Positions 7,190-15,354 of a DNA stretch of 64,000 bases are shown here, piece after piece. Source of the stretch: Syntrophobacteraceae bacterium (lineage in GTDB: Bacteria > Desulfobacterota > Syntrophobacteria > Syntrophobacterales > Syntrophobacteraceae). Location: contig JARLHP010000127.1 of assembly GCA_031292195.1 (NCBI GenBank), forward strand, positions 1-64,000, given 5' to 3'. Under the pieces are notes generated by a model, which searched no databases, was not told the DNA's origin, and saw only the letters and a program-made list of their open reading frames with translations. Numbering within the stretch: position 1 is the stretch's first letter; the number at the start of each line of letters is the position of its first letter. Both the position numbers and the translations under genes were made by a program.

Positions 7190-7250
7190 GATTCACCGAT
7201 TCACCCATTCACCGGCTCTTATTCACCGGCTCTTATTCACCGGCTCTTAA
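7190..7250. repeat. Short tandem repeat (ttcaccg..., 'attcaccggctctt' x3)
   Basis: gattcaccgattcacccattcaccggctcttattcaccggctcttattcaccggctctt; overlaps the trpA 3' end. Confidence 0.8.
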
Positions 7251-8036
7251 CGCACTTTTCAGCCTGGCCGCGAATTCCCCGACCTTCTCCGCTATGTGAC
7301 TATCCTGCAGGCCCGATTCGATGAGCCTTTCGAAAGCGCTTCCCACCACCACGCCGTCGGCGAATTGCGACATTTTCGCCGCATCCTCCGGCGTGGAGAT
7401 GCCAAACCCTACACACACGGGAAGATCGTTGCAGTTTTTTTTCAGCTCTTTGGCCACTACGGCCGTTTCTTCACTTTTCAGTCCACTGCTGCCGGTAATA
7501 CCGGTCATGGAAACCAGGTAGATAAAGCCGGAGGCCCTGGAAGCTATCCGGGCCATGCGCTCGGGCGGCGTAGTGGGGGCCACCAGCCGGATGAAGTCGA
7601 GGTCATGTCCCCAAAGCCGGGTCAGTTCGTCGGATTCTTCGGGAGGAAGGTCCACCACCAGCGTCCCGTCGGCCCCGGCAGCGACCGCGTCGCCGTAGAA
7701 CTTTTCGGCGCCATAGGCCAGGATGGGATTATAGTAGCTGAAAAGGACGATGGGGACCGAACTGAACTCCCTTATTCGCCGGACCATTTCCATCACGACT
7801 TTCATATTCATCCCCGCGCCGATGGCGCGCGCCGATGAACGCTGAATGACCGGCCCGTCGGCGGTCGGGTCGGAAAAAGGTACTCCCAGTTCGAGAAGGT
7901 CGACTCCCGAGCGGCACATTTGCCGAGTTATCTCCAAAGACATGGCAAAGTCGGGGTCTCCGGCGGTGATAAAGCCTACCAGCGCTTTTTCTCCCCTGGA
8001 GCGCAGATTGCCGAAAGTTTCTTCTATCCTGCTCAT
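7233..8036 (-). CDS. trpA: Tryptophan synthase alpha chain
   Basis: '[12 protein letters not shown]', '[18 protein letters not shown]', 'GITGSSG', '[13 protein letters not shown]'. Confidence 0.97.
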
Positions 8037-8045
8037 ATGCTTATC

Positions 8046-9260
8046 TCACCTCGCCTTCAGCTTTTCCACTATTCCCAGGTCCTTGTCCCCACGTCCGGAC
8101 AGGTTGACGATGACGATTTTTTCCGCCGGCATGCGGGCCGCTTCCACCAGGGCGCGGGCCACCGCGTGAGAGCTTTCGAGGGCCGGAATAATCCCCTCGA
8201 CCGCACTCAGAAGGTGGAAAGCGTTAAGCGCGTCTTCGTCCACCACGGATTCGTAGCGCACGCGGCCGGTATCCTTCAGCCAGGAATGCTCCGGCCCGAC
8301 GCCCGGGTAGTCAAGGCCGGCGGATATGGAGTGGGCTTCCTTTATCTGCCCGTTTTCGTCCTGGAGCACATAGGACTTGGAGCCGTGCAGAACGCCGACA
8401 GAACCCGCCCCGAGAGTGGCGGCATGCTTTCCGGTGCCGATTCCGCACCCCGCGGCCTCAACTCCCACCATCTCGCAGCCATCTTCCAGGAAAGGATAGA
8501 AGAGGCCCATGGCGTTACTGCCTCCCCCTACGCAGGCCACCAGCATGTCCGGCATCACGCCTTCGGCCTCCATGATCTGCCTTTTTGCCTCGTCTCCTAT
8601 CACCCGCTGGAAGTCTCGGACCATAACCGGGTAGGGGTGGGGACCGGCCACCGAACCGATGACGTAGAACGTATCGCGCACCGAGCCAACCCAGTAGCGC
8701 ATGGCCTCATTCATGGCGTCCTTCAAGGTGCCCGTTCCCGAATCCACCGGCATGACTTCGGCCCCCAGCAGTTTCATCCGCTGGACGTTGGGAGCCTGCC
8801 GGGAGATGTCTTCGGTGCCCATGAAAATCTTGCACTCCATACCGAACAGGGCCGCCGCGGTGGCAGTCGCCACTCCGTGCTGTCCGGCGCCGGTCTCGGC
8901 GATCACTTTAGTCTTCCCCATCCACCTGGCAAGAAGTGCCTGGCCGAGCGTGTTATTGATCTTGTGCGCGCCGGTATGAGCCAGATCCTCCCTCTTGAGA
9001 TAGATGCGAGCCCCCCCGACTTTGGCGCTAAGCCGCCTGGCGCAAAAAAGCGGGGTCGGCCTTCCGGCATAGTCTTTCAAAAGAAGGTTCAGTTCGGCCT
9101 GGAAAGTCGGTTCGGCGCATATGGAGTTGTACGCGCGCTCCAGTTCGATCACCGCGGGCATGAGCGTTTCGGCCACGTAGCGTCCTCCGTAGGGTCCGAA
9201 GTGCCCTCCCCCATCGGGCAAAATTGAAGCCATTTTGGAGTCGTTCTCAGCCACTCTCAT
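8046..9260 (-). CDS. trpB: Tryptophan synthase beta chain
   Basis: '[13 protein letters not shown]', '[16 protein letters not shown]', '[14 protein letters not shown]', 'GGGSNAMG'. Confidence 0.97.
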
Positions 9261-9943
9261 TTGAATATCCTCCCCGGCGCGGAACGCGGTTTCGCATTCC
9301 GGACCGCCTCGATAAAAGCACGCACTTTATTTTTGTCCTTTCTTCCCGGCGCCGATTCCACCCCGGAACTTACATCGACGGCGTCGGGCCCGACTTGGCA
9401 AATGGCCTCACCGACGTTTTCAGGGTTCAAACCTCCAGCCAGGATACAGTGCCGCCTGCCGGCAAGATCACGGGCCGCACTCCATTCCCAGCTGAGCCCC
9501 ACTCCGCCCGGTTGCCCCCCCCCACCGCCTTCGACAAGCAAAGCACAACCGCGATAATCGTCGGCATCCGCTAAAAAAGGCTTTCTCTTGGCAAAGAGGG
9601 CTTTTATTACGGGTATCCCTGTCGACTCGATCGCCTCAACCATCGCGGGAGGTTCGCAGCCATGAAGCTGAACAAAATCAAGGCGGCACAATTCCGCGAT
9701 TTTCACGATCTCCAGGAAAGGCTCGTCTACAAAGAGGCCGACTTTAAAGACACCTTTCGGAAGGTTCTCGCCAATTTCTTTCGCCACGGCAACGGTTACA
9801 AAACGCGGACTGGGCGGATAAAAAACCAGGCCTATGGCGTCGGCGCCCAGTTGCGCACAGGCAACAGCTTCCTCCACCACGGTCAGACCGCATACCTTTA
9901 CTTGTGGCGCCCCGGGACTATCAAACATCATTTCTCTTTCCAT
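9257..9943 (-). CDS. trpF: Phosphoribosylanthranilate isomerase (start chosen at Met28 of the listed ORF, just after the trpC stop)
   Basis: '[35 protein letters not shown]', '[10 protein letters not shown]', 'DVSSGVES'. Confidence 0.93.
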
Positions 9944-9945
9944 TT

Positions 9946-10734
9946 CTATGCTCCGTGCAGGGTCCGCAACAGCATTACGGGGTCCTGCGACCTCATGAGG
10001 CTCTCGCCAATCAGGAAATTCCATATCCCGGCTTCGAGAAGCCGCTCGATATCGGAGCGCGTGTGGATACCGCTCTCGGCCACCAGGACCTGCCCGGGAG
10101 CGGCTTTTCGGGAAACGCGGATAGCAGTGGAAATATCGGTGGTAAAGGTCGCAAGGTCGCGGTTGTTTATGCCGACAAGCCGCGCCCCGGCCCGGGAGGC
10201 GATCTCGAATTCATGCTCGTCATGCGTCTCGACCAGCGCGTCCAACCCCAGGCCCGCGCACAATGCCAACAGGTCTTTCAGTAATTCCGGCGAAAGCGCC
10301 CTTACTATCAGCAATAGGGCATCGGCGCCCATGACCGCCGATTCGTAGACCTGGTAAGGACTTATAATAAAGTCCTTTCGAAGGGCCGGAAGCTGTGAGG
10401 CAGCCCTGACTTTTTTTAAATCGTCCGGACTTCCGCTGAAATAATCCCGGTCCGTAAGCACCGAAATAGCGGCGGCGCCTCCTGATTCGTACATCCGTGC
10501 GAACTCGGCGGGATCGACGTTGTCCTTAATTTTTCCTCTGGAAGGAGAGGCGCGCTTGACTTCGGCGATAACATTCATCCCGGCTGGTCCCCGCACGGCC
10601 AGCCTGCCCATGAAAGCCCTTCGCCCGTTGGACTGCTCCGCATCCCGCCTGAGGGAACTCTCCGACACGCATTTGGCGGCTTCTCTTACTTCTTCCTTCT
10701 TCCGCTCGATAATCCTGGAAAGAAAATCGGACAT
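9946..10734 (-). CDS. trpC: Indole-3-glycerol phosphate synthase
   Basis: 'VIAEVKRASPSRG', 'LRKDFIISPYQVYES', 'GINNRDLATF', 'VAESGIHT'. Confidence 0.97.
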   Translation of the reverse strand: MSDFLSRIIERKKEEVREAAKCVSESSLRRDAEQSNGRRAFMGRLAVRGPAGMNVIAEVKRASPSRGKIKDNVDPAEFARMYESGGAAAISVLTDRDYFSGSPDDLKKVRAASQLPALRKDFIISPYQVYESAVMGADALLLIVRALSPELLKDLLALCAGLGLDALVETHDEHEFEIASRAGARLVGINNRDLATFTTDISTAIRVSRKAAPGQVLVAESGIHTRSDIERLLEAGIWNFLIGESLMRSQDPVMLLRTLHGA

Positions 10735-10786
10735 CTTGGTTCATCCCCACATAACGTGTTAGTGACCGTTGTCGCAGCCCCGAGCC

Positions 10787-11809
10787 TCAGTTTGTGAACC
10801 GTATTAACGCCTCAAGCTTCTGGCTGGCCCGACCTTCGTCGATGGATGCCCGGGCCATTTCGATACCTGCGGTAAAATCACGGGCCTTACCGGCCGCAAC
10901 CAGGGCCGCTCCGGCATTGACCACCACCACGTCGCGCTTCGGGCCCTTTTCACCGGCCAGGATCTTCAACGTTATCCGGGCGTTCTCAGCAGCCGTTCCC
11001 CCCGCCATATCCGACTGATCGGCAGTGCGACCCAGCAGTTGTTCGGGCGTAATATCATAGGTCCGGATCAGTCCGTCCTTCAACTCGGAGACCCTGGTGG
11101 GAGCGCAGACGCTGATCTCATCGAGCCCCTCGTGTCCGTGCACCACAAAAGCCCGCCTGGAGCCAAGCCGATCGAGGGCGCGGGCAAACATTTCCGTCAA
11201 CTCGGGGGCGTAAACGCCGATCAACTGGCAGTTGGCGCCCGCCGGGTTTGTCAAAGGCCCGAGCATGTTAAAAATGGAGCGCACCCCCAGTTCCTTCCGC
11301 GCCTTGGCGGCATGGCGCATGGCGCCGTGAAACAGCGGAGCGTAAAGAAAGCCTATGCCGATCTGTCTTACGGCCTCTTCCACCACTTCCGGACCGGCTG
11401 CCAGGTTTACGCCCAGCGCTTCCAGCAAATCGGCGCTCCCGCATTTGCTGGTGATCGAACGGTTGCCGTGCTTGGCCACCGTGACCCCGCAACCGGCCAC
11501 GACGAAGGCCGACGTGGTCGAGATATTGAAAGTGCCGGAGGAGTCTCCGCCAGTGCCGACGGTATCAACCACCGTATCCGCGTTTGTCTGGATTCTGGTT
11601 GCTTTGCGCCGCATGGCGCGCGCAGCCCCGACCAGTTCAACGTAAGTCTCTCCTTTGGTGGCAAGAGCGGCCAGTATGGCCCCGATTTGAGCGTCGGTCG
11701 CCTTGCCCGACATTATCTCGCCAACCAGGCCGGCCATTTCTTCCTCGCCCAGATCCTTCTTTGCAATAATGCTCTTGAGGCTTTCCTGTATCATGCTTGT
11801 TCCTTCCAT
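10787..11809 (-). CDS. trpD: Anthranilate phosphoribosyltransferase
   Basis: 'DTVGTGGDSSGTFNISTTSAFVVAGCGVTVAKHGNRSITSKCGSADLLEALG'. Confidence 0.97.
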   Translation of the reverse strand: MEGTSMIQESLKSIIAKKDLGEEEMAGLVGEIMSGKATDAQIGAILAALATKGETYVELVGAARAMRRKATRIQTNADTVVDTVGTGGDSSGTFNISTTSAFVVAGCGVTVAKHGNRSITSKCGSADLLEALGVNLAAGPEVVEEAVRQIGIGFLYAPLFHGAMRHAAKARKELGVRSIFNMLGPLTNPAGANCQLIGVYAPELTEMFARALDRLGSRRAFVVHGHEGLDEISVCAPTRVSELKDGLIRTYDITPEQLLGRTADQSDMAGGTAAENARITLKILAGEKGPKRDVVVVNAGAALVAAGKARDFTAGIEMARASIDEGRASQKLEALIRFTN

Positions 11810-11814
11810 GGAGT

Positions 11815-12426
11815 CTATTGTCCGCGGGCAAGAGAGAGAAAGTTTTTGAGCAGCCGTTTGCCAACGGGCGTCATGATGGATTCAGGATGAAACTGCACAC
11901 CCTCGGTGAGGTGTTCTTTGTGGCGGATACCCATGACTTCGCCGTCTTCCGAACTGGCCGTGACTTCCAGGCATTCCGGCAGGCTCTGCGGCGCCACCGC
12001 CAGGGAATGGTAGCGCATGGCCTGGAAAGGATTCGCTATCCCGGCGTAAATCGACTTTCCATCGGAAGTGACCGTCGAGACCTTTCCGTGCATCAGTCTT
12101 TTGGCGTGGACCACATCGGCCCCGAAAGCCGCCCCAATCGCCTGGTGCCCCAGGCAGATTCCAAGGATGGGAATCTTTCCGGAAAAACTGCGAATGGCCT
12201 CCATGGAGATTCCCGCATCCTCGGGCCGGCAGGGACCCGGTGAGATCACCAGGGCGGAGGGGGCAAGGTTGCGGATATCCTCAATGGAGACCTCGTTGTT
12301 TCTGGCCACCTTCACCTCGCCGCCCAGCATTCCGAAATACTGAAAAAGGTTGTAAGTAAAGGAATCGAAGTTATCGATCATGAATATCATGGGGTCTTCT
12401 CCGTTACAAACGCCTTGAAATGTCAT
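11815..12426 (-). CDS. trpG: Anthranilate synthase glutamine amidotransferase component
   Basis: 'MIFMIDNFDSFTYNLFQYFG', 'ILGICLGHQAIGAAFG', 'GVQFHPES'. Confidence 0.95.
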   Translation of the reverse strand: MTFQGVCNGEDPMIFMIDNFDSFTYNLFQYFGMLGGEVKVARNNEVSIEDIRNLAPSALVISPGPCRPEDAGISMEAIRSFSGKIPILGICLGHQAIGAAFGADVVHAKRLMHGKVSTVTSDGKSIYAGIANPFQAMRYHSLAVAPQSLPECLEVTASSEDGEVMGIRHKEHLTEGVQFHPESIMTPVGKRLLKNFLSLARGQ

Positions 12427-12428
12427 TG

Positions 12429-12500
12429 TTGGGCTGCGCTTCGCTTAGCCCAACCTACAACGCTTAGCCCAACCTGCTGCGCTTTGCCCAGCCTGCCGCG
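12429..12500. repeat. Palindromic dispersed repeat (TTGGGCT...AGCCCAACCTRC family) inside the trpE-trpG spacer
   Basis: ttgggctgcgcttcgcttagcccaacctacaacgcttagcccaacctgctgcgctttgcccagcctg; related copies near 15432, 30889, 32114, 35160. Confidence 0.75.
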
Positions 12501-12533
12501 TTATGGCGCTCAGGATATCAGGGCGCCTGATGG

Positions 12534-14018
12534 CTAAAGCCCGACCGCTTTGCCTTCCAGCATCTGCAGCGCCCTGTGTATCGACTTAGCCTTGTTGATC
12601 GTCTCCTGTCTTTCCCGCTCGGGATCTGAATCGGCCACTATCCCCGCCCCTGCCCTTACCGTCAGCTTGCCGTCCCGGATACAGGCGGTCCGGATGGTGA
12701 TTGCAAGGTCCATGTTGCCGGTATAGGAAAAGTAGCCGATCGCCCCCCCATAGGGCCCCCGGGGCTCATCTTCAAGCTCCGCTATAATTTCCATTGCCCT
12801 GACCTTGGGAGCGCCGCTAAGGGTTCCGGCCGGGAAAGTGGCCCTGAAAAGGTCGAAGGCGTCCAATCCCTCGCGCAGGTCGCAGTTTATGTTCGAAACC
12901 ATGTGCATGACGTGGGAGTATCTTTCCACCACCATCAGGTCGGTCACCTGCACCGAACCGATCTCGGCCACCCGGCCCAGGTCGTTTCTGCCTAGATCCA
13001 CCAGCATGAGATGCTCGGCCCTTTCCTTTTCGTCTTTTAGCATTTCGTCTGCCAGCTCCCGGTCCTGCTGTTCGGTTTTTCCGCGAGGGCGGGTGCCCGC
13101 GATGGGGCGAAGAGTGGCCACCCCGTTTTCCAGGCGCACCATGGTTTCAGGCGATGAGCCGACCAGGATGGTGTCGTCAAAATGGAGAAAATAGAGGTAG
13201 GGAGATGGGTTTATGAAGCGTTGCGCTCGGTAAAGAGACCGGGGGTCGGGTGGGGGGGAACAGCTGAACTGCTGGGAATACACCGCCTGGATGACGTCTC
13301 CCTCCCTGATGTATTCCTTGATCCTGGAAATGTCGGCCAGAAACTTCCGCGGCTCGGTTTCGTCAGTCAAAGCAAAATCGTTGGGACCCGGGCGCGGGAA
13401 TGGCTCCAGGGGGGCTTCGAGCTTACCTTGCATTTCCTTCAAGGTCTCCACAGCCCGGTCGTAGGCCTCGTCAGCCCCGCCGTTTTCCACCAGGGCGTAA
13501 GCCACAAGGCTCAGCGTATGGCGCACGTTATCGAATATGAACAACTGTCCGGGCAGAATGAAATGGGCAATCGGGACATCCGCGGGCAGTCGGTTCTCAA
13601 TATTTTCTAAAAAAGAGACGAACTCATAGGAGAAAAATCCGACCATGCCACCCCAGAACCGGGGCAGCCTGGAGAGCTTTACCGGTTTGTACCCGGCCAT
13701 GAGGGAGCGCAGGATTTTTAGCGGGTCTCCGTCATGAGCGACTCGCTCTTTACCTGCGGCGCTTTCGATTTCTACTTCGTCGCGAAACACCCTGACACTG
13801 GTAGTGGCGGAGTTACCCAGAAAGCTGTACCTTCCCCACCTCTCGCCACCCTCCATACTTTCCAGCAAAAAAACCGGACCATGGCCGTGGTATATTTTGG
13901 CCAGCGCGGATACAGGCGTCTCCGTATCGGCAAGCACTTCCATACACACCGGGATAAGGTTCCCCTTTTCAGCCATAGCCCGAAACTCAGCTCTGTCCGG
14001 GTAAAAGCCCAACTGCAT
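12534..14018 (-). CDS. trpE: Anthranilate synthase component I
   Basis: 'VFLLESMEGGERWGRYSFLG', 'IKEYIREGDVIQAVYSQQFS', 'GTRPRGKT', 'FPAGTLSGAPKVRAMEII'. Confidence 0.97.
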   Translation of the reverse strand: MQLGFYPDRAEFRAMAEKGNLIPVCMEVLADTETPVSALAKIYHGHGPVFLLESMEGGERWGRYSFLGNSATTSVRVFRDEVEIESAAGKERVAHDGDPLKILRSLMAGYKPVKLSRLPRFWGGMVGFFSYEFVSFLENIENRLPADVPIAHFILPGQLFIFDNVRHTLSLVAYALVENGGADEAYDRAVETLKEMQGKLEAPLEPFPRPGPNDFALTDETEPRKFLADISRIKEYIREGDVIQAVYSQQFSCSPPPDPRSLYRAQRFINPSPYLYFLHFDDTILVGSSPETMVRLENGVATLRPIAGTRPRGKTEQQDRELADEMLKDEKERAEHLMLVDLGRNDLGRVAEIGSVQVTDLMVVERYSHVMHMVSNINCDLREGLDAFDLFRATFPAGTLSGAPKVRAMEIIAELEDEPRGPYGGAIGYFSYTGNMDLAITIRTACIRDGKLTVRAGAGIVADSDPERERQETINKAKSIHRALQMLEGKAVGL

Positions 14019-14061: not shown

Positions 14062-15081
14062 TTATTGGTTTGTCGAGGCCTTATAGACGTTGGAAATTGC
14101 CTCTATCTGTCTGCACAGGTCCGCGAACTGATCGGGATAAAGGGACTGCGCCCCGTCGCTCAAGGCCTTTTCGGGGGCGTTGTGAACTTCCACTATCAGG
14201 CCGTGGCAGCCCACCGCAACTGCGGCCCGGCCAAGGGGGACCACCTGGTCCCTGAAACCCGCGGCGTGGCTGGGATCAACGATTATCGGCAAATGACTTT
14301 CCTGTTTGACCACCGGAACCGCTGAAAGGTCCAGGGTGTTTCGGCTGTGACTGGCGAAGGTGCGGACCCCGCGCTCACAAAGAATGACTTTGTCGTTTCC
14401 GCCCTCCATGATGTACTCGGCGGCCATCAGCCACTCCTCTATGGTTGCGGCCATGCCGCGTTTTAAAAGAACGGGCTTTCTCGATTTGCCGGCCCGCCGC
14501 AGGAGGCTGAAGTTTTGCATGTTCCTGGCCCCGATCTGAACCATGTCCGCGTAATGCTCGACCAGATCGAACACCTCGTGGTCCATTGCTTCGGTGACAA
14601 CCGGCATTCCGGTTTCACTGCGCACTTTGGCCAGGATCTTAAGCCCTTCCTCACCCAACCCCTGGAACGAGTAAGGCGAGGTCCTGGGCTTGAAGGCGCC
14701 GCCCCGAAAAATCCGCGCGCCACGATCCTTCACCAGTCGGGCGATCTCAAGGGCCCCCGCTTCGCTCTCGATGGCGCAGGGCCCGGCCATGACGGTGAGA
14801 TGACCATTCCCGACCAGGACTTCTCCAACCTCTATAACCGAGTCGCCCGCATGGGACTCGCGGCTTACAAGTTTGAAGGGCCGGGTTACCGGAATGACCT
14901 CTTTGACCGCCGGAAGCTGCATAAATAGAGACGCGTCCACCGCACCCTGATTATGAAGAACGCAGATTGCCACCCGCTCTCCACCCGGAATCGGCCTGGC
15001 GGTGAATCCCTTCTGCTCTATAGCGCAGACTGCCGCCTCTATCTCCTCGGAAACGGCGTTCTTTTTCATTACGACAAGCAC
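14062..15081 (-). CDS. aroF: 3-deoxy-7-phosphoheptulonate synthase, AroF/type I-beta with N-terminal ferredoxin-like regulatory domain (start possibly Met5)
   Basis: 'TVMAGPCAIESEAGALEIARLVKDRGARIFRGGAFKPRTSPYSFQGLGEEGL', 'IIVDPSHAAGFRDQV'. Confidence 0.95.
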   Translation of the reverse strand: MLVVMKKNAVSEEIEAAVCAIEQKGFTARPIPGGERVAICVLHNQGAVDASLFMQLPAVKEVIPVTRPFKLVSRESHAGDSVIEVGEVLVGNGHLTVMAGPCAIESEAGALEIARLVKDRGARIFRGGAFKPRTSPYSFQGLGEEGLKILAKVRSETGMPVVTEAMDHEVFDLVEHYADMVQIGARNMQNFSLLRRAGKSRKPVLLKRGMAATIEEWLMAAEYIMEGGNDKVILCERGVRTFASHSRNTLDLSAVPVVKQESHLPIIVDPSHAAGFRDQVVPLGRAAVAVGCHGLIVEVHNAPEKALSDGAQSLYPDQFADLCRQIEAISNVYKASTNQ

Positions 15082-15101: not shown

Positions 15102-15139
15102 AAAAAAAGAAAGGGACCGCGGATTGCCTCCACGGTCCC
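15102..15139 (-). terminator. Attenuator hairpin 2 (minus strand GGGACCGTGG...CCGCGGTCCC + TTTCTTTTTTT)
   Basis: Perfect/near-perfect 10-bp stem followed by a U-rich tract, 5' of aroF. Confidence 0.8.
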
Positions 15140-15144
15140 TCTAA

Positions 15145-15183
15145 AACGAAAAAAGACCGTGAGCCTTGGCGCGGCCCACGGTC
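15145..15183 (-). terminator. Attenuator hairpin 1 (minus strand GACCGTGGGCC...GGCTCACGGTC + TTTTTTCGTTTT)
   Basis: 11-bp stem with one mismatch followed by a U-rich tract; between leader ORF and hairpin 2. Confidence 0.8.
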
Positions 15184-15213
15184 CAACCAGTTATCTACAT
15201 TGCGAACTGATGG

Positions 15214-15288
15214 CTATCCCGTCAGGCAAGCGCCTCCACAGCTACACCACCAGCACCAGAAGTAGGGTCTATCGAATGTATTTCTCAT
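15214..15288 (-). CDS. Putative aromatic/tryptophan attenuator leader peptide MRNTFDRPYFWCWWCSCGGACLTG
   Basis: ATG...TAG 25 codons on the minus strand with SD-like GGAGAG upstream; cluster Y-F-W-C-W-W; lies 30 nt before tandem terminators and the aroF-trp operon. Confidence 0.8.
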   Translation of the reverse strand: MRNTFDRPYFWCWWCSCGGACLTG

Positions 15289-15348
15289 CTACAATGCTCT
15301 CCGTCCAAAAATTACCTCAGTTTGTAACAGGTCCGAATAAAAATTACA

Positions 15349-15354
15349 AGTCAA
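15349..15354 (-). promoter_or_regulatory. Candidate -35 box (TTGACT) of the aroF-trp leader transcript
   Basis: TTGACT about 60 nt upstream of the leader ATG in an AT-rich stretch; -10 is weak (CTGTTA/TGTTAC). Confidence 0.35.

Follow-up and report, generated by a model that had tools for sequence, protein, structure and literature searches.

A probable tryptophan-responsive attenuator with linked tandem terminators in the leader of an aroF-trp operon from a Syntrophobacteraceae bacterium

Introduction

The aroF-trpEGDCFBA operon of a Syntrophobacteraceae bacterium, found within a 64,000-nucleotide stretch of DNA that we refer to as the window, is preceded by a leader that contains a short open reading frame (ORF) with a cluster of Trp codons and, 3' of it, two U-tailed terminator hairpins, T1 and T2. 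Comparison and computation establish the ORF, both terminators and two further pairings, S2:S3 and S4:S5, and together these elements form a chain of mutually exclusive neighbouring helices, S2:S3, S3:S4 (T1), S4:S5 and S5:S6 (T2). We interpret the leader as a ribosome-mediated attenuator of the aroF-trp operon that would sense charged Trp-tRNA through this chain of alternative helices and its two terminators, an interpretation drawn from sequence and predicted structure to which we assign a probability of roughly 0.7. That the leader is an attenuator of some kind is very probable. A first-pass annotation of this DNA had already proposed a leader-peptide attenuator with refoldable tandem terminators ahead of the aroF-trp operon, and conservation and covariation, described below, lend support to that proposal.

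The operon and its leader

All of the features described here lie on the minus strand of the window. The first gene of the operon, aroF (14062-15081, GTG start), encodes a DAHP synthase with a ferredoxin-like N-terminal domain (PF00793, PF18152; NF006421, TIGR01361), and it is followed by trpE, trpG, trpD, trpC, trpF, trpB and trpA at 7233-14018, a gene order given by the first-pass annotation with which Pfam agrees. The predicted trpC and trpF ORFs share 79 nt (9946-10024), and the real start of trpF is probably further downstream. A second DAHP synthase of the same genome (L002:1495-3390, contig C44) has 631 amino acids and is fused to a prephenate dehydratase and an ACT domain, so that the aroF of the trp operon is one of two isozymes.

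On the basis of the sequence and its relatives we place a candidate sigma-70-type promoter at 15321-15349, with a -35 element TTGTAA (15349-15344), a 17-nt spacer and a -10 element TACAAA (15326-15321), from which transcription would be expected to start near 15314. The TTGTAA-17-TACAAA pair is not among the matches of a strict consensus promoter scan of the window. Relatives carry promoter-like sites (TTGCAA or TTGACA, 15-18 nt and a T-rich hexamer) some 60-90 nt 5' of the first Trp codon and, because the pair at 15349-15321 occupies the corresponding place, a transcript start downstream of 15150 appears unlikely. Only 28 nt separate T2 from the start of aroF, so that a promoter bypassing T2 has no obvious place; in two relatives (L019 and L023) the corresponding gap exceeds 200 nt and a separate promoter is possible.

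The leader ORF (15214-15288) has 24 codons and a stop, is preceded by a possible SD sequence, GGAGA, and encodes MRNTFDRPYFWCWWCSCGGACLTG, exactly as first annotated. Its Trp codons, numbers 11, 13 and 14 (15258-15256, 15252-15250 and 15249-15247), form a W-C-W-W cluster, and a Trp cluster is kept in 43 leaders. Fold predictions and a terminator scan place T1 at 15154-15184, with a 5' arm S3 (15184-15173), a loop and a 3' arm S4 (15165-15154), and T2 at 15110-15142, with arms S5 (15142-15129) and S6 (15123-15110); both end in U tails. The two hairpins had been noted in the first-pass annotation, and an independent scan placed them at 15184-15154 and 15142-15110, among 4 terminator-like sites where 1.4 are expected from shuffles. 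Their placement within about 30 nt of the stop codon holds for T1 (29 nt) and fails for T2 (71 nt). An intrinsic terminator between the leader ORF and the first gene, a feature of trp attenuators, is therefore present, and the 219-nt leader as a whole folds far more stably than its dinucleotide shuffles (z -4.8, 0 of 200).

Conservation of the leader and the amino acid read

In a first set of aroF loci, from the same family, the same order and beyond, 44 carry the leader, defined here by a short Trp-cluster ORF and, after it, a U-tailed hairpin (in L046 the start of the ORF is lost at a contig edge). The order of Trp-cluster ORF, T1 and T2 before aroF is kept in 41 of the 44, which range from the same family and order to more distant relatives; of the others, L029 is masked by N and L043 and L044 have one U-tailed hairpin. 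Five further aroF loci (L040, L042, L045, L047, L051) and those of the f5 genomes were without such a leader. In the f5 genomes it stands before trpE instead, an arrangement that links the leader with the trp genes and not with DAHP synthase. A covariance model adds about 50 leaders to the 44, and the conservation of the Trp-rich short ORF and the hairpins in these relatives argues that neither arose by chance. Within the genome of the window itself only weak matches to other copies were found, with no leader peptide in the stretches read, and the present copy alone is clear.

Residues Y9, F10 and W11 are adjacent in the leader peptide of the window, and the first-pass annotation had suggested that the switch might read several aromatic amino acids. 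Comparison argues against this at the aroF-trp leader. Of 43 leaders, 3 have Tyr two residues ahead of the first Trp and 26 have Phe immediately ahead of it, whereas the relatives retain the Trp pattern, W-x-W-W or WW-x-WWW. Because only the Trp codons are conserved, the codons point, with high confidence, to Trp as the signal sensed. The number of Trp codons is by itself no test of this, since Trp clusters were a selection criterion of the ORF search; the features that recur beyond it are the position of the ORF before T1, its frame, its stop and the structures downstream.

A predicted antiterminator at the 3' end of the leader ORF

The 5' strand of the antiterminator, S2 (GGCGC..GCCU.ACGG, 15219-15234), lies within the end of the leader ORF and was assigned from its duplex and covariation with S3. 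It is complementary to the 5' arm and loop of T1, forming in the window a duplex with a predicted free energy of -23.1 kcal/mol. In the computed structures one segment, S3, is thus contested between antiterminator and terminator, and a ribosome at the stop codon could mask the former. The first-pass account lacked this antiterminator. An earlier candidate of our own, in which CCATCAGTT downstream of the stop codon pairs with AACTGGTTGG upstream of T1, is not kept outside the genus, and S2:S3 was preferred.

Over the 44 leaders the native S2:S3 duplexes span -14.5 to -30 kcal/mol and are stronger than duplexes with dinucleotide-shuffled S2 at p<0.05 in 34 cases (mean z -2.3); they also exceed cross-genus swaps by about 4.3 kcal/mol in both directions. 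When partial transcripts ending before S4 were folded, with the ribosome assumed to mask nine bases 3' of the last Trp codon, S2:S3 was present in the minimum free energy (MFE) structures with six or more pairs for 43 of 44 leaders (median 14). A MAFFT alignment gives a covariation score of 0.248 over eight S2:S3 pairs, as compared with 0.095 for shuffled and 0.03-0.07 for slid controls, and columns 41:116 carry six pair types (CG, GC, UA, AU, GU and UG). The exchanges can be appreciated from individual leaders, such as GGGACUC/GAGUCCC in L129, GGGCUC/GAGCCC in L128 and GUGCGUC/GACGCAU in L050. Similar peptide endings recur, GGARLTG and CADG, and because S2, at the end of the ORF, covaries with S3 these are probably kept for the RNA rather than for the peptide. 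In a second set of sequences, described below, the mean z of S2:S3 is -3.5 (21 trp leaders).

MFE folding also identifies a segment 3' of the stop codon, 1' (CCATCAG, 15207-15213), that is complementary to the Trp codons (CTGGTGG). The resulting hairpin is paired in 86% of alignment cells with no covariation, and it is plausible as the fold adopted when no ribosome is present.

A predicted helix linking the two terminators

The 3' arm and U tract of T1 (15162-15152) can pair with the 5' arm of T2 (15140-15130), forming the alternative helix S4:S5 (15130-15162) that emerges both from comparison and from folds of partial transcripts. In an alignment of 39 sequences T1 is paired in 95.9% of cells and T2 in 91.6%, and both values are exceeded by S4:S5, with 97.7% of cells paired over 11 column pairs. 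Transcripts running from S4 to before S6 form at least nine S4:S5 pairs in 41 of 41 cases, at -15 to -26 kcal/mol. Changes in S5 are mostly C-U or A-G exchanges that retain a G-U pair with S4, and changes on both sides are found in L041 (GUCAC/GUGAC), genus g8, family f3; since the sequences are related, such pair counts overstate the number of independent events.

The first-pass annotation had drawn attention to a different pairing, that of the 5' arm of T1 with the 3' arm of T2 (3:6). The complementarity is real in the window, a 9-bp match of -19.0 kcal/mol, and weaker in relatives (83.6% of cells, against 97.7% for S4:S5), and in any event it proves little because any two similar hairpins cross-pair. 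It does provide a useful control. Mere likeness between the hairpins should keep the mirror pairing 3:6 as well as it keeps S4:S5, which is not what the relatives show. When compared genus by genus in the first set, S4:S5 is the stronger of the two (p=0.0008). Native S4:S5 helices beat cross-genus swaps weakly (p=0.086), a result that reflects how conserved the CCGUGG core is.

The second set consists of covariance-model matches, located at other genes and in other classes, that had not been used to form the idea, namely trpE, trp, aroF, trpB2, second aroF and paaK leaders. Here at least seven S4:S5 pairs form in 30 of 30, and native helices are stronger both than swaps (p=0.0004) and than 3:6 (p=0.0004), values to be read as guides because the arms were delimited by hand and relatedness varies among the sequences. 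Taken with the first set, these comparisons make it likely that the two terminators are coupled by a relay.

Proposed mechanism and alternatives

We infer that the leader is transcribed and translated, that ribosomes can stall within it, and that folding order and regulatory outcome would be as follows. When Trp is plentiful the ribosome would pass W11, W13 and W14 and reach the stop codon, covering S2; S3 would then be free to pair with S4, T1 would form and most polymerases would stop, while those that run past T1 would make S5:S6 and stop at T2. When Trp is scarce the ribosome would stall on the Trp codons and expose S2, which starts about 13 nt after the last of them and would pair with S3 once that segment has been transcribed. 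Having lost its partner, S4 would capture S5 before S6 is made, S6 would remain alone, and with neither terminator formed the operon would be read. Without a ribosome the Trp codons would pair with CCATCAG and hold S2 inside, making termination the default. The computed stability of T1 and T2 together exceeds that of S2:S3 and S4:S5 together, and for this reason the on-state of the relay would be metastable and would need co-transcriptional folding, as in other attenuators.

The most serious alternative is a classical trp attenuator with a single decision, in which S2:S3 and T1 do the switching, T2 is a back-up that leaks a constant fraction and S4:S5 is a by-product of T2 having been copied from T1. 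S2:S3 and T1 would indeed suffice to explain regulation, leaders with one terminator exist (L043, L044 and those before iorA), duplicated hairpins cross-pair anyway, and the swap test for S4:S5 is weak in the first set. A copy, however, should have retained 3:6 too, and in two separate sets 3:6 has decayed while S4:S5 is kept; moreover, the 5' arm of T2 is kept more strictly than the pairing of T2 itself requires, and a strong, unregulated second terminator would blunt induction. We regard this alternative as unlikely, though it deserves far more weight than the two that follow.

The switch as originally proposed, reading Tyr, Phe and Trp and refolding through 3:6, can point to the adjacent Tyr, Phe and Trp and to the 9-bp match in the window, but neither the Tyr codon nor 3:6 holds up in relatives, Phe is only partly conserved, and the order in which the terminators are freed would make little sense, T1 being formed by the time the 3' arm of T2 is made; we consider it very improbable. 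Equally small is the chance that the terminator role is secondary and that the CCGUGG hairpins are a site for an RNA-binding protein, or that the short RNA produced by termination works as a trans-acting small RNA. Such a role would suit the GUGGG core, which varies unusually little in the two hairpins, and PMC7298713 reports a Sinorhizobium trp leader peptide that acts in trans. Yet the core varies in several leaders (CCGCAGG, CCAUGG) with pairing kept, and the U tails, the position, the in-frame Trp codons and the covarying antiterminator all suit attenuation in cis. The relay of S2:S3 followed by S4:S5 thus remains our preferred reading.

Relation to known systems

No Rfam family, the T-box family included, matches anywhere in the window at the gathering cut-off. 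The best weak match, to the Bradyrhizobiaceae small RNA BjrC68, covers T1-T2 (15104-15169, minus) with 23.8 bits against a cut-off of 39. Like the trp attenuator of E. coli and Salmonella, the leader combines a short ORF containing clustered Trp codons with an antiterminator and an intrinsic terminator that compete ahead of trp genes, through a shared segment complementary to both partners. It differs in that one strand of the antiterminator is contained in the last part of the ORF, that tandem U-tailed terminators are joined by a second alternative helix, that the operon starts with aroF, and that no Rfam family matches. The his-type attenuator of enteric bacteria reportedly contains a chain of alternative helices, A-F (Johnston et al. 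1980, as cited in PMC3896937). Consecutive helices that each free or block the next are common to both, but the his chain responds to His and has a single terminator at its end, whereas here two of the links are themselves U-tailed terminators and Trp codons take the place of His codons. TRAP-type trp attenuators have about 11 (G/U)AG repeats in the leader; the present leader can be accounted for by its in-frame Trp codons and S2:S3, without recourse to such repeats.

A ribosome-mediated attenuator of the trp operon has also been predicted in Corynebacterium and Streptomyces (PMC1262725). Tandem terminators occur in the rimP leader of some Gammaproteobacteria, one of them with a potential antiterminator, and resemble the present pair in lying in a 5' leader, although gene and motif differ and the available text describes neither a leader peptide nor amino-acid codons for rimP (PMC2965389). 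The Salmonella mgtCBR leader likewise has more than one attenuation step; its tandem attenuators are reported to involve two short ORFs, whereas here one ORF would control both terminators (PMC3641672). For chains of RNA helices in attenuation, PMC4833913 cites Lopatovskaya 2010. We found no description of trp attenuation in Syntrophobacter or Geobacter in the open-access literature searched; key surveys (doi 10.1016/j.mib.2008.02.005, 10.1111/j.1574-6968.2004.tb09555.x) fall outside that scope and a prior description is possible. The kind of element, a trp attenuator, is known, and the conserved, coupled tandem terminators look new.

Occurrence in the phylum and significance

A covariance model of T1-T2 matches 55 of 56 genomes of the class at E<=0.001, weak and partial matches included, and at E<=1e-7 it has matches in 62 of the 199 genera sampled from the phylum; among the matches read, some lie before trpE or aroF-trp genes.

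Others lie at further loci. MWWWQAW-type leaders with tandem terminators precede TrpB-like (trpB2, TIGR01415) genes at 12 loci (L177, L178, L182-L184, L186, L188, L199, L201, L202, L206, L209), and Trp-rich leaders of the WWRWWW type with a single terminator precede the gene for indolepyruvate ferredoxin oxidoreductase alpha (iorA) at six (L180, L187, L190, L192, L200, L208). Leaders rich in Tyr and Phe (MNSKGTVRRFYFYYGWYYGPEGVGRPPR; FYFYYGWYY) with tandem terminators are found before a second DAHP synthase gene (aroF) in L181 (944-2020), L193, L194, L195 and L198, and are the multi-aromatic leader that the first-pass annotation had imagined, at another locus. Phe-rich leaders (MENRFACFSFFFFSSFSF), again with tandem terminators, precede phenylacetate-CoA ligase (paaK) in L203, L204 and L207, and a Phe-containing short ORF with tandem hairpins lies upstream of an unnamed gene with a YidD domain (L205:152-1402).

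There is a slightly better than even chance, in our estimation, that a phylum-wide class of attenuators exists in which one stalled ribosome disarms two consecutive terminators through the relay of S2:S3 and then S4:S5, reused for Trp (aroF-trp, trpE, trpB2), for Tyr/Phe (second aroF) and for Phe (paaK). Attenuation is usually drawn with one terminator and one antiterminator, and here comparative evidence indicates that two terminators and the helix linking them are kept, in relatives of syntrophic and sulfate-reducing bacteria. The analysis reveals unannotated short ORFs and RNA elements absent from Rfam, and aromatic genes that are probably regulated together. The leader offers a testable case for why two stop signals might be needed; if the mechanism proposed here is correct, the relay would make the off-state tighter, or the response steeper, than one terminator does.
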